This document shows, piece after piece, positions 2,263 to 5,540 of a stretch of DNA of 64,000 nucleotides. Every line of letters begins with the position of its first letter. Position 1 is the stretch's first letter. A program made the translations under genes and the position numbers. Source of the stretch: an uncultured Pseudanabaenaceae cyanobacterium (GTDB lineage Bacteria; Cyanobacteriota; Cyanobacteriia; Pseudanabaenales; Pseudanabaenaceae); assembly GCA_937927915.1 (NCBI GenBank), contig CALGKB010000005.1, positions 1-64,000 of the forward strand. The letters are read 5' to 3'. A model generated the notes under the pieces. The model was given only the letters and a program-made list of their open reading frames with translations, did no database searches and was not told the DNA's origin.

Positions 2263-5211
2263 TTAGAGTCCATTGCCAATCACTAAAAACGGTGCCCAAT
2301 AGTAGGGATGGCTGAGATTTTCCAGGGTGGAGGCAGGCAGGTGGGAGCGCAAACGCTGCCACAAAACTGGAGCTTTTTCTCCCAGGGGACGGAAATCTCC
2401 CGTAATCAAAATCTCCTGCGTCAAACGCACTGCTTCGGCAACACTCAGGCGCTGCTGGGTCAACAGGGTGTAAAAAATTTCCATCCAGGCTTGCGTCCCC
2501 CCATCGGAAATTGACCACAGGGAAGCGATCGTTGTCCGTGCCCCCCGTTCCTGCATTAGATAGCCAAACCCCAAAATCTCTTCCCCATTGCCGAGGACTG
2601 CCCCCGCTGCCGTTTCACAGGCACTGAGGACAACTAAGTCTACATTCTCCAAATTCCACTGCCGTAAATCCCTAAAGGTCTGCCGTTCCCCGTTGCCAAA
2701 GACAATGAAAGAATCGGTGGGTGTGCCGGGCAAAAATACCGCATGGGTGGCAAAATGCAGCCAGTTAAACGATCGTGCCTGTTGCTGTACCTGGGGGGGG
2801 GAAAAATCTTGGTCAAAGAGCTTACTACTATCTGGGACAAGACTGGTGAGGTAATTCACTTCTCCTCTGGCAGAGGGCAAGCCCGCAAACTGCAAAGTCC
2901 GTCCACCCAGGTTGATCGTCTGTCTTTGGGTGAGGGCACCAGCTAATAGGCGGGGTAGGGGGGAAAGGCGAGATGTAAAGTTCTGTAGACTGGCGCTGGT
3001 AATAGTATTGATACGGAAGCGCTGCCCTAGCCATTGGTTGCCGTCGTGGAGAGCGGCTAAGGGGATGTAGCGCAGTTGGGCGGTGGGGACATAGAAGAGG
3101 GTGCGGATTTGACGGGCTTCCAGGATGTCCTCCAAGGGTTGAATGAGATAACGGTAGAGGACTTGCCCCTCCCCCTGGGGATTGGCTTCCACATCATAGA
3201 TTGCCTCCAGACTATAGCGAAATTTTTGCACTAACTGCAGGAATTGGGCACGGGGAACATAGCTAGTACGGCGTAGGGGGGCAATGCCAGGGGCAATTAA
3301 AATCATCTCCAGGCGGTCTTGCCGCACAACGGGGTAGAGAATGGCGGACTGGGGGTCCAATTGGGCTAGCTCCCTTTGCAGTTGTTGCAGATTGATCTCC
3401 CTAACTTGTTGCGCCAGTTGCTGGACGGCGGGTTTTGCCAAAAATTGTGCCAGTTCCTGCTCATTCCCCTGCAGTGCCTGGTATTGCTGATAGAGTTCCT
3501 GCTGCGCTGGGCTGAGTTGGGCTAACACCTGACTGTTGACCCTAGGGCTAATGTTGCCTAGATAGCGATCGAGTTCCCCCAGGATTGCCAAATCTAGGGT
3601 TTGCTGTGCTTCTAGGATTTTCCCCCGTTCTAGGAGGAGGTCTAGGGCAAGGGGGAGGGGGGTAGTGGGGGAGAGATGGAGACTGCTTAAACTCGCCTGC
3701 ACTGCTAGAGTGGTCAGACTATCGGTGGGGGTGGGGGTAGGGGGGGGAGGAGGAGGGGTTAGGGGTACGGGGTCAGTGGTATTGCGGGCAAGACGATCGA
3801 GATTGCGATGGGCTAAAATATTCTCCGTCAGACTGCGCCGCTGCTGCTCGAGGGGTAAAAAGCGCACATTCCCCTGTACTTCTTCAAATTCCACCGCACT
3901 AAACAGACTCGTGACATTGTTAGTGACCGTGCGCGCCCCGATCGTGCCCTGGGCAGTAAAGAAGCCATCCGCCAGAATTTTGCCATCACTGCGAAAAGTA
4001 ATGTTACCGCCGCTGCTCATGGGACTGCTGGGATGATTCAGTGCCAAAATGTCAATTTCCCGATCGCCCCTGAAGGTGAGGTTACTGCCTGCCCCAATCA
4101 CCGCTGGGGTTTCCAGGGTATCCCGCAACAGCAGACGATTTTGCCCCTGCAGGAGTACCGTCCCCCGTCCCTGGATATTGGGCACAAAGAGGGCCACATT
4201 GTTACTGGCAATAGCTTGGATGTCCGCCGCTGCCATGGAACCCAACACCACATCCCCTGGTTGAATGACCAACTCCCCGATCGGTTCTAATTTGCCATTC
4301 CCCAACAGCAGGGTGCCCAAACCGGGGGAACGTCCTTGGGGTAGTAATTCCAGGGAGCCATCGGGATTGACTGCCAGTTCCTGTGCCTCTGGGCGGCTGG
4401 GTGTACCTGTCAACAGTTGTGCCAGGTGGGGTAGTTCTGTGATTTTGCCCGACCACTGGGGGGCTAGGCTGCCGGAGCGCACTTCCAACCCCAAAATGGA
4501 GCCTGGTGCCCGCAGAGTGACCGTAGAATTGCCCGCGACCGCTACGACATCCACCTTACCAGCCGGTGCCACCAAGGTTCTGGGACTGACCACTGTCCCC
4601 CCCGCCAGAATAATGTCCTGCCCTGTTTTTACTTCCAGCTGCCCCTGGTTGATGATTGCCCCTGGTTGCATCACAGAAAACTGCAGGGAGAGGGGAGAGC
4701 CGGCAAAGAAATTACTGTTACCCCGATCGGTGGTAAAAATGCCCCCCCCACTAAAACCAATCGCTGTGGCGGTAGTGGCGACGAATGACCCCCCTATATC
4801 CAGGCGGCTGTTATTGCCAAAGACAATGCCATTGGGGTTGAGGAGATAGAAATTGGCAATGGGGAGATCCCTGGCGGTGTTAATTGTCCCCAAAATGCTA
4901 GAAGGCTCGCTGCCTGTCACGCGATTGAAAATATTGGTAATGCGTCCGCCGTTGATACCCGTGCTACCGACGCTAAAGGTGACCCCTTCTGGTGGGACAT
5001 GGAAACGATCGAAACTGTGGAATAAGTTAGTGCCCCGAATAGAGTTGAGGTTGGTAGGGACAATCACATTGCCCCCTTCCACAGCTGTACTGGTACTGCC
5101 ATCAGGCACGATCGGTTGACTGCGCGCCCAACCACAGAAGAGCGTCAGGATTATACCACTCCCCAGCAGCCCCCAGCGTTGCATAGCCACAGGATTAGTC
5201 ATTACAGTCAT
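2263..5211 (-). CDS. Filamentous-haemagglutinin-type secretion domain fused to CHAT protease
   Basis: Large protein with three parts. Residues 1-32 form a signal peptide (hydrophobic LLGSGIILTLFCGWARSQ). About 35-300 is a TpsA/filamentous-haemagglutinin N-terminal domain (FHSFDRFHVPPEGVTFSVGS; NPNGIVFG), which in known systems is recognised by a TpsB outer-membrane transporter. After a proline linker near residue 490 comes a helical stretch, and the C-terminal 300 residues are a caspase-like CHAT domain. Its His lies in LHFATHA (H823) and its Cys in LSACETA (C865), both intact. Family knowledge suggests an exported cysteine protease; substrate and partner are unknown, and no TpsB gene is in the window. 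The open frame extends to a TTG at 5232; ATGs at 5211, 5202 and 5184 are more likely starts. Confidence 0.87.
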   Translation of the reverse strand: MTVMTNPVAMQRWGLLGSGIILTLFCGWARSQPIVPDGSTSTAVEGGNVIVPTNLNSIRGTNLFHSFDRFHVPPEGVTFSVGSTGINGGRITNIFNRVTGSEPSSILGTINTARDLPIANFYLLNPNGIVFGNNSRLDIGGSFVATTATAIGFSGGGIFTTDRGNSNFFAGSPLSLQFSVMQPGAIINQGQLEVKTGQDIILAGGTVVSPRTLVAPAGKVDVVAVAGNSTVTLRAPGSILGLEVRSGSLAPQWSGKITELPHLAQLLTGTPSRPEAQELAVNPDGSLELLPQGRSPGLGTLLLGNGKLEPIGELVIQPGDVVLGSMAAADIQAIASNNVALFVPNIQGRGTVLLQGQNRLLLRDTLETPAVIGAGSNLTFRGDREIDILALNHPSSPMSSGGNITFRSDGKILADGFFTAQGTIGARTVTNNVTSLFSAVEFEEVQGNVRFLPLEQQRRSLTENILAHRNLDRLARNTTDPVPLTPPPPPPTPTPTDSLTTLAVQASLSSLHLSPTTPLPLALDLLLERGKILEAQQTLDLAILGELDRYLGNISPRVNSQVLAQLSPAQQELYQQYQALQGNEQELAQFLAKPAVQQLAQQVREINLQQLQRELAQLDPQSAILYPVVRQDRLEMILIAPGIAPLRRTSYVPRAQFLQLVQKFRYSLEAIYDVEANPQGEGQVLYRYLIQPLEDILEARQIRTLFYVPTAQLRYIPLAALHDGNQWLGQRFRINTITSASLQNFTSRLSPLPRLLAGALTQRQTINLGGRTLQFAGLPSARGEVNYLTSLVPDSSKLFDQDFSPPQVQQQARSFNWLHFATHAVFLPGTPTDSFIVFGNGERQTFRDLRQWNLENVDLVVLSACETAAGAVLGNGEEILGFGYLMQERGARTTIASLWSISDGGTQAWMEIFYTLLTQQRLSVAEAVRLTQEILITGDFRPLGEKAPVLWQRLRSHLPASTLENLSHPYYWAPFLVIGNGL

Positions 5212-5540
5212 GTTAGCTAACAGTCTTAGCAAATCGCAAGGGGAAAATCAACAATGACTATAAAGTAGAGACACCAATCCACCAATGCTTAGAGTTACTG
5301 CTCTTTCTAAAACCATTAAGAGCAAGCCTCCTATATACCAAAATAAAATAGAACTGCAGGGGCAGAAAACTTACTACCGAAAACATCTAAGGCATGATAA
5401 TAAATGCTATTTACAACCGTGATAGGGTGTAATAATTCCATAACCACTAGCAGATAAGTAGCTTGTTTATAGTTTTCACACCGTTAATAGTAATTGCCAG
5501 TGTGTGATATACTATAAATATATAGACATTCCTAAATCCT
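5212..5540. promoter_or_regulatory. AT-rich divergent intergenic region
   Basis: About 330 bases without a gene between the divergent CHAT gene and the unknown membrane protein. It is clearly more AT-rich than the surrounding coding DNA and probably holds both promoters. On the plus strand TATACT and TATAAA hexamers lie at about 5509-5518, some 25 bases upstream of the ATG at 5541. On the minus strand TATAGT lies near 5255-5260. No riboswitch fold, tRNA or small gene was recognised. Confidence 0.45.

Follow-up and report, generated by a model that had tools for sequence, protein, structure and literature searches.

A gene at positions 2263 to 5211 (minus strand) of a 64,000-nucleotide stretch of DNA from an uncultured Pseudanabaenaceae cyanobacterium (contig CALGKB010000005.1, positions 1 to 64,000; this whole stretch is called the window) codes for a protein that joins a TPS (TpsA secretion) domain to a CHAT protease domain. 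An earlier note on the same DNA had made this observation, without giving the strand, and it is confirmed for the export domain of TpsA type as well as for the intact CHAT domain. The best explanation is that the TPS-CHAT protein is a two-partner-secretion exoprotein, predicted to be an exported cysteine protease of the caspase/separase type that acts on surface or extracellular proteins. The probability given to this reading is roughly 0.47, or slightly less than even odds.

The open reading frame (ORF) runs from an ATG at 5211 to a stop codon at 2263-2265 and codes for 982 amino acids; an in-frame TTG upstream of the ATG would lengthen it to position 5232 and 989 amino acids. Residue positions of Pfam matches are counted from the TTG, and those of His823 and Cys865 from the ATG (His830 and Cys872 from the TTG). 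The TPS domain (4477-5112; all features of the gene are on the minus strand) matches PF05860 at residues 41-252 (E 2e-31, over the cut-off), and the CHAT domain (2272-3171), at the extreme C-terminus, matches PF12770 at residues 688-987 (E 9.8e-56; 189.7 bits against a cut-off of 24). The NCBIfam model adhes_NPXG (TIGR01901) also matches the protein (E 6.5e-18), and the TPS domain holds an NPNG motif (4828-4839) in which N94, P95, and G97 are invariant among 16 TPS rows. Alignment places the catalytic His823 at 2743-2745 and the catalytic Cys865 at 2617-2619. Pfam, NCBIfam, and the alignment thus bear out the claim that one protein carries a TpsA recognition domain and a CHAT domain with H823 and C865. 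Between the two domains lie, in order, a beta-rich region (3937-4452), a proline-rich linker (3712-3765), and a helical domain (3181-3690) that, by comparison and model, is common to CHAT proteins without a TPS domain. The beta-rich region is presumed to be a short beta-helix on the basis of predicted strands of low pLDDT, the models being too weak for proof. The gene is also present at full length in a genome of the same genus (G002), with 87.5% identity and a whole-chain dN/dS of 0.068, and it is therefore not a product of chance. The nearest named relative encountered is the metagenome-assembled genome "Cyanobacteria bacterium M5B4."

The nature of the N-terminal domain is best seen by comparison with solved structures. 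A profile built from the 16 TPS rows and run against PDB sequences matches 2odl ("Adhesin," which we take to be HMW1) at 1.7e-12, EtpA at 5e-12, 4i84 ("Heme/hemopexin-binding protein," presumably HxuA) at 3e-9, and filamentous hemagglutinin (FHA; 1rwr) at 1.2e-5, and the window sequence by itself matches 4i84 at E 7.4e-6. The domain therefore matches solved TpsA secretion domains, and the failure to match TpsA profiles that the earlier note named as a refutation did not occur. The best match, 2odl, agrees with the statement, in the available passage of PMC4104836, that the HMW1B group of TpsBs contains a large number of cyanobacterial sequences. Weak matches of a mixed alignment to coronavirus main proteases cover the TPS part only and are gone with a proper TPS profile; these are taken as chance. 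Ahead of the TPS domain, residues 1-31 (5119-5211) look like a signal peptide, with a hydrophobic core and WARS before QPIVPDG. Signal-peptide calls come from a heuristic of our own, not from a trained predictor; it is positive for the window protein, 24/38 other TPS-CHAT proteins, 20/30 TpsBs, 12/25 CHAT-only proteins, and 2/4 TPS-only proteins.

The TPS-CHAT architecture is not a rarity. When the TPS domain and beta region of the window protein were searched against 386 cyanobacterial genomes, with up to four candidates scored per genome, at least 49 genomes matched at E 1e-30 or better, in at least 95 places, two of them in the source genome itself. Forty of the other 93 places (the best-ranked and a pick of the rest) were taken with their flanks, and in 32 of these loci TPS and CHAT stand in one ORF (33 ORFs). 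Locus L145 is probably fused too, since its CHAT-bearing frame holds a TPS match; the TPS model is silent there, and the frame is cut by the locus edge. L137 and L140 seemed to have separate TPS and CHAT genes, a reading that was rejected in favor of interrupted fusions (the linker of L137 is frameshifted, and a low-complexity part of L140 contains a run of N). CHAT is absent from loci L109 and L114, and L118, L142, and L143 run off the end of the sequence. Adding L066, L070, L071, L073, and L074 brings the total outside the window to 38 fused ORFs in 37 loci, which span 15 families by the labels of the genome set. In all 38 other fused ORFs, the CHAT domain ends at most three residues from the C-terminus. 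The spacing between TPS and CHAT ranges from 425 to 2003 residues (median 989), the shortest being that of L071, an 88% relative of the window protein. Among the 37 fused loci, whose flank lengths vary, a TpsB gene is present in 10, and CHASE2, DUF928, and trypsin-like genes in three each. Pairs of trypsin-like protease genes lie upstream of TPS-CHAT in L115, L127, and L131; since all three belong to one clade, the association counts as one event.

The source genome (2.40 Mb in 13 contigs) has three TPS genes and two TpsB genes of the ShlB/FhaC type. The TpsB on contig C1 adjoins a TpsA gene, divergently oriented. No TPS gene lies in the 19-kb locus of the second, at C3:87172-88701, which is the kind of orphan TpsB for which the earlier note had proposed a genome search. 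It has orthologues in G002 (83% identity) and G001 (68%), matches of 44-48% in G004, G006, G007, G008, G011, and G013, a fragment at 53% in G012, and best matches of 35% in G003, G009, and G010, so that some match is present in 13/13 genomes. The TpsB tree comprises 29 rows, including a truncated duplicate of the C1 TpsB; rows from the 13-genome search have short flanks, and the lack of a TPS gene in the locus says little for them. One branch (SH-aLRT 100) sets 12 of the 29 rows apart, namely the C3 TpsB and 11 others, including the TpsBs adjacent to TPS-CHAT genes in L070, L074, and L108. A further branch (22 rows, SH-aLRT 100) unites all ten TPS-CHAT-adjacent TpsBs with the C3 TpsB and leaves the C1 TpsB opposite. 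The C3 TpsB is 44-45% identical to the TpsBs of L070, L074, and L108 and 36-41% identical to the other seven; for the C1 TpsB, identity to all ten is 34-38%. Because of these groupings and identities, and because it is an orphan, the C3 gene is most likely the missing TpsB partner, sitting in trans.

Without its signal peptide, the window protein is 951 residues long and contains a single cysteine, the nucleophile. The 38 other fused ORFs have 0.155 cysteines per 100 amino acids, compared to 0.947 in 197 control ORFs (non-overlapping ORFs from the same loci); 39 ORFs touching a locus end were excluded from these counts. The catalytic cysteine is the only one in 14 of the 38, one of which is 2512 residues long in its mature form. 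In 19/38 TPS-CHAT proteins, the part beyond residue 40 has exactly three cysteines, two in addition to the nucleophile. The scarcity is not special to the fusions, as CHAT proteins without TPS are also cysteine-poor (0.182 per 100 amino acids, n=25); the values are 0.117 for TpsB, an envelope protein (n=30), and 0.351 for TPS proteins without CHAT (only n=4). By comparison, 19 cysteines occur in a presumably cytoplasmic forkhead-associated/ABC-transporter CHAT protein of 1280 amino acids from the source genome.

The CHAT part was modeled with confidence over about residues 610-980 (pLDDT mostly 80-97), and its fold is that of Csx29 and separase. The model aligns with Csx29 at Z 26.5 (310 residues, 3.2 Å, 12% identity), with the separase ctSPD at Z 25.7 (15% identity), and with gingipains at Z 17.0-18.1 (RgpB 18.1); Foldseek likewise ranks Csx29/TPR-CHAT first and separases next. 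The His and Cys of the dyad are present in 40/40 TPS-CHAT rows, one of which repeats the window's own sequence, and in 53/53 other CHAT rows, a count from which CHAT matches shorter than 230 residues and rows sharing identical last 150 residues had been excluded beforehand. TPS-CHAT would thus be a CHAT-type cysteine protease with an intact His823/Cys865 pair, for which proteolysis is predicted from sequence and model. Beyond its own type, the nearest relatives of the window's CHAT domain are CHAT proteins without TPS, some with signal-peptide-like starts. The TPS-CHAT protein matched no PADLOC family at E 0.01, in a library not checked for CHAT models of Craspase or SAVED-CHAT, and an identity as a defense system was set aside for want of a match.

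Put together, these features suggest a route. The chain would be exported by Sec through its signal peptide, and its TPS domain would be recognized by the C3:87172-88701 TpsB, to which phylogeny and orphan status point, and not by the C1 TpsB that adjoins its own TpsA. It would then be threaded through the outer membrane, and the observed shortage of cysteines may serve to keep it disulfide-free on the way. A short beta-helix and the proline-rich linker may display the C-terminal CHAT domain, which, given its dyad and fold, is predicted to cleave surface or extracellular proteins with His823 and Cys865. Since CHAT is the last domain in 38/38 other fused ORFs, the protease looks like the cargo and not like a device that releases further cargo. 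The location outside the cytoplasm is argued from the TPS match to solved TpsA domains, the grouping of the orphan TpsB, and the family-wide cysteine scarcity, and this extracytoplasmic reading is supported but not proven.

Several points weigh against it. There is no TpsB beside the TPS-CHAT gene in the visible flanks, of which the downstream one is just 2.3 kb because the window begins at base 1 of its contig (C5); the statement of the earlier note that none lies within 5 kb therefore holds for the existing sequence, and on the downstream side covers only 2.3 kb. In G002, where the gene sits inside a contig, there is no TpsB in a 19-kb locus either. The signal-peptide heuristic is also positive in 37/197 control ORFs, so what stands of the claimed signal peptide is a signal-peptide-like start with a hydrophobic stretch before QPIVPDG. 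An AlphaFold model of the TPS/beta part, made from two sequences only, has a pLDDT of 31, and in Foldseek FHA 1rwr comes up only at E 0.1; the proposed structure prediction thus succeeded for the CHAT part and failed for this one. The cysteine count of the window protein alone proves less than it seems to. At the control rate, 9.0 cysteines would be expected in 951 residues, and the Poisson P of one or fewer is 0.0012, a value that flatters the case since 7/38 control ORFs with at least 600 mature residues also have no more than one. Such counts are not rare in single proteins, and the cysteine argument therefore rests on the TPS-CHAT family. The C-terminal parts of some TpsA proteins remain periplasmic, so CHAT may not reach the outside. 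Lastly, the window type of the gene is recognized in six genomes and intact in three (the window, G002, and G004). In G006, it is cut by an insertion sequence (L065, 6465-7948) with 32-nucleotide inverted ends and a 433-amino-acid ORF without a Pfam match at E 0.01; counting this one, the element is present in 31 full-length, near-identical copies among 40 scored of 51 candidates. The genes of G001 and G009 are frameshifted, which may reflect assembly errors (about 390 and 510 contigs, respectively), and the G009 contig also ends inside CHAT. The gene is dispensable at least in G006.

TPS and CHAT are also encountered as separate genes. On contig C1 of the source genome, a divergent TpsB gene is followed by genes for a TpsA of 863 amino acids, a TPR-CHAT protein of 811 amino acids with a signal-peptide-like start, DUF928, and CHASE2-SpoIIE. 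CHASE2, CHAT, another gene, TpsA, and TpsB stand in a row on three Gloeothece plasmids (two from Gloeothece citriformis PCC 7424, one from Gloeothece verrucosa PCC 7822), and TpsB, CHAT, and TPS are consecutive on a plasmid of Nostoc sp. UHCC 0302. Of the four plasmids, three are classed as conjugative; in public annotation, the plasmid genes go by names like "CHAT domain-containing protein" and "filamentous hemagglutinin N-terminal domain-containing protein." On a plasmid of Kovacikia minuta, TPS and CHAT occupy two successive frames; the CHAT frame lacks a signal-peptide-like start, and the arrangement resembles a fusion that has been interrupted. One could consider all of these forms together as cyanobacterial caspase-like proteolysis in the envelope and outside, by TPS-CHAT fusions in cis or by an exported CHAT protein in trans beside a TpsA. 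Its partners would be trypsin-like proteases and CHASE2 sensor phosphatases, and it would form an extracytoplasmic counterpart of the intracellular caspase networks; this broader proposal is unlikely as it stands.

The same arrangements invite other explanations. CHAT could be a maturation protease for TPS exoproteins, cutting its own chain in the fusion (and so freeing the beta part or itself) and a neighboring TpsA where it is exported separately. TpsA and an exported-looking CHAT are adjacent at C1 and on the Nostoc plasmid and one gene apart on the three Gloeothece plasmids, and the proline-rich linker offers a possible place for the cut. In the available passages of PMC3482391, caspase-like domains in polymorphic toxins are for the most part interpreted as processing peptidases; however, those that process sit just upstream of the C-terminal toxin domain, while the 38/38 C-terminal position of CHAT in the fusions leaves nothing downstream to be released. 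Maturation is therefore a possible but rather unlikely role. If CHAT instead stays periplasmic, the protein could signal from outside in, with TPS sensing at the surface and CHAT cleaving a periplasmic regulator such as a CHASE2 sensor phosphatase. The CHASE2-SpoIIE and DUF928 genes that come after TpsA and CHAT at C1 would fit this, as would the CHASE2 genes in all three Gloeothece cassettes, the DUF928 gene immediately upstream of the interrupted gene of the window type in G006 and G009, CHASE2 or DUF928 near the fused genes of L120, L122, L130, and L138, and a fold match to a CHAT structure titled "transmembrane anti-sigma factor DdvA," for which the title alone is at hand. The visible flanks of the window gene contain neither a CHASE2 nor a DUF928 gene, though, and each occurs in only 3 of the 37 fused loci. 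Such signaling is quite improbable.

A TpsA-type N-terminal part followed by a C-terminal enzyme is also the layout of CdiA-like toxins, and TPS-CHAT shares it, so a contact-dependent or polymorphic toxin with a protease effector has to be weighed. C-terminal caspase domains are indeed accepted as toxins in PMC3482391, as far as its available passages go, but these list HINT as the only processing protease of the type V secretion system (T5SS) and report neighborhoods of TpsB and toxins only outside cyanobacteria. The C-terminal hypervariability of such toxins is absent in the one genome pair compared, the window and G002: identity is even along the chain (TPS 90.1%, beta region 90.5%, CHAT 88.7%), and dN/dS is low (TPS 0.059, beta region 0.052, linker 0.088 over 35 codons, helical domain 0.034 with dS 2.1, CHAT 0.069; the signal region has 0.33 over 31 codons with dS 1.8). 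The sole small downstream gene, DUF1232, was not found in the L072, L066, and L065 loci (the L067 contig ends inside CHAT). With no variable tip seen and no immunity gene seen to travel with the fusion in the loci searched, a toxin fits less well; it was set aside as very unlikely. The interrupted copies in G006, G001, and G009 could also mean that the protein is decaying or is not exported and has no part in secretion. A dN/dS of 0.03-0.09 in each region after the signal peptide, an intact dyad in 40/40 rows, and cysteine scarcity across the family leave this idea very little credence, and the exported protease is preferred.

The fusion may have arisen more than once. The CHAT tree has 92 rows. 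Members of the window type (the window, G002, M5B4, G004, and G006) lie within a set of CHAT proteins that have no TPS; 31 other TPS-CHAT rows and the interrupted L137 and L140 stand apart from them, and five more form a third, distant group. With 43 rows counted as fused, a single origin gives an approximately unbiased (AU) test p of 0.025, at a cost of 50 log-likelihood units, and three changes are counted. Scoring L137 and L140 as unfused (41 rows) gives a p-AU of 3.7e-10 and five changes, a result that is mis-scored and not relied on. The CHAT rows without TPS come mostly from searches with the window's own protein and are biased to its kin, and a single origin is only mildly disfavored. 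In the TPS tree, the window protein groups with TPS proteins of its own family (12/51 rows, SH-aLRT 96), including L070, L073, L074, and L108, which bear the other kind of CHAT. Because the TPS tree groups by family while the kinds of CHAT differ, it looks, with moderate support, as if one TPS lineage was joined to two CHAT lineages.

Some further genes of these loci deserve mention. Downstream of the TPS-CHAT gene, the window has DUF1232 and murQ (N-acetylmuramic acid 6-phosphate etherase) at 1037-2220 on the minus strand; both are present in the G002 locus and in 0/8 other loci searched. Elsewhere in the source genome, on contig C2 (L008 5195-8216, minus strand), a 516-amino-acid TPS protein resembles the N-terminal half of the window protein, lacks CHAT, and lies near a trypsin-like protease gene with weak PADLOC matches to the protease parts of defense models. 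The cysteine-rich CHAT protein of 1280 amino acids, on contig C4 (L009 7811-11653, plus strand; about 259810-263652 of the contig), combines a CHAT-like domain with two forkhead-associated domains, an ABC ATPase, and an ABC-2 membrane part.

In the literature, related proteins have been met in other contexts. According to the parts available, HetF acts at the divisome (PMC8406250), and a phage-resistant strain of Nostoc 7120, RD5, is mutated in a "filamentous hemagglutinin N-terminal domain-containing protein," known here by its label only, that the authors class as cell surface, adsorption not having been determined for RD5 (PMC10811720). The available text of PMC8195603 has no relevant passage on hemagglutinin and CHAT. 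No description of the TPS-CHAT architecture was found among the listed titles and abstract openings from an open-access library, subscription journals lying outside this coverage. Both domains and the export route are already known; their combination, for which no description was found, is common in the TPS loci examined.

TPS-CHAT can be compared with several known systems. In PMC3482391, within the passages available, caspase-like domains appear as processing peptidases or as C-terminal toxins that leave by the type VII secretion system (T7SS), PVC, TcdB/TcaC, or the type II secretion system (T2SS). With these toxins, TPS-CHAT shares a C-terminal caspase-like domain on a protein whose export is predicted, but PMC3482391 does not name the T5SS as a route of caspase toxins, and TPS-CHAT has no variable tip seen and no evident immunity gene. 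The TpsA exoproteins HMW1, EtpA, HxuA, and FHA (type Vb) share with it the TPS domain with NPNG, a signal-peptide-like start, and a TpsB in the genome. They carry adhesive, heme-binding, or other C-terminal parts, whereas TPS-CHAT has a CHAT protease at its C-terminus and its putative TpsB elsewhere in the genome. The CHAT fold, the dyad, and the helical domain before CHAT are shared with TPR-CHAT/Csx29 of Craspase, a cytoplasmic, RNA-guided protein with TPRs in place of the TPS export domain. Separase, which is eukaryotic and intracellular, shares the CHAT-type protease fold at low identity, and the gingipains, caspase-fold cysteine proteases with a different domain layout, do act outside the cell but are exported by the type IX system. 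The cyanobacterial CHAT proteins without TPS, such as HetF, share the CHAT domain and lack the TPS domain. To our knowledge, the CHAT proteases with a known role that can be named are intracellular: Craspase serves CRISPR-guided immunity, separase chromosome segregation, and HetF development. If it is exported, a TPS-CHAT class spread across many cyanobacterial families would put this fold outside the cytoplasm, in a one-gene, one-transporter system where export and cleavage can be probed.

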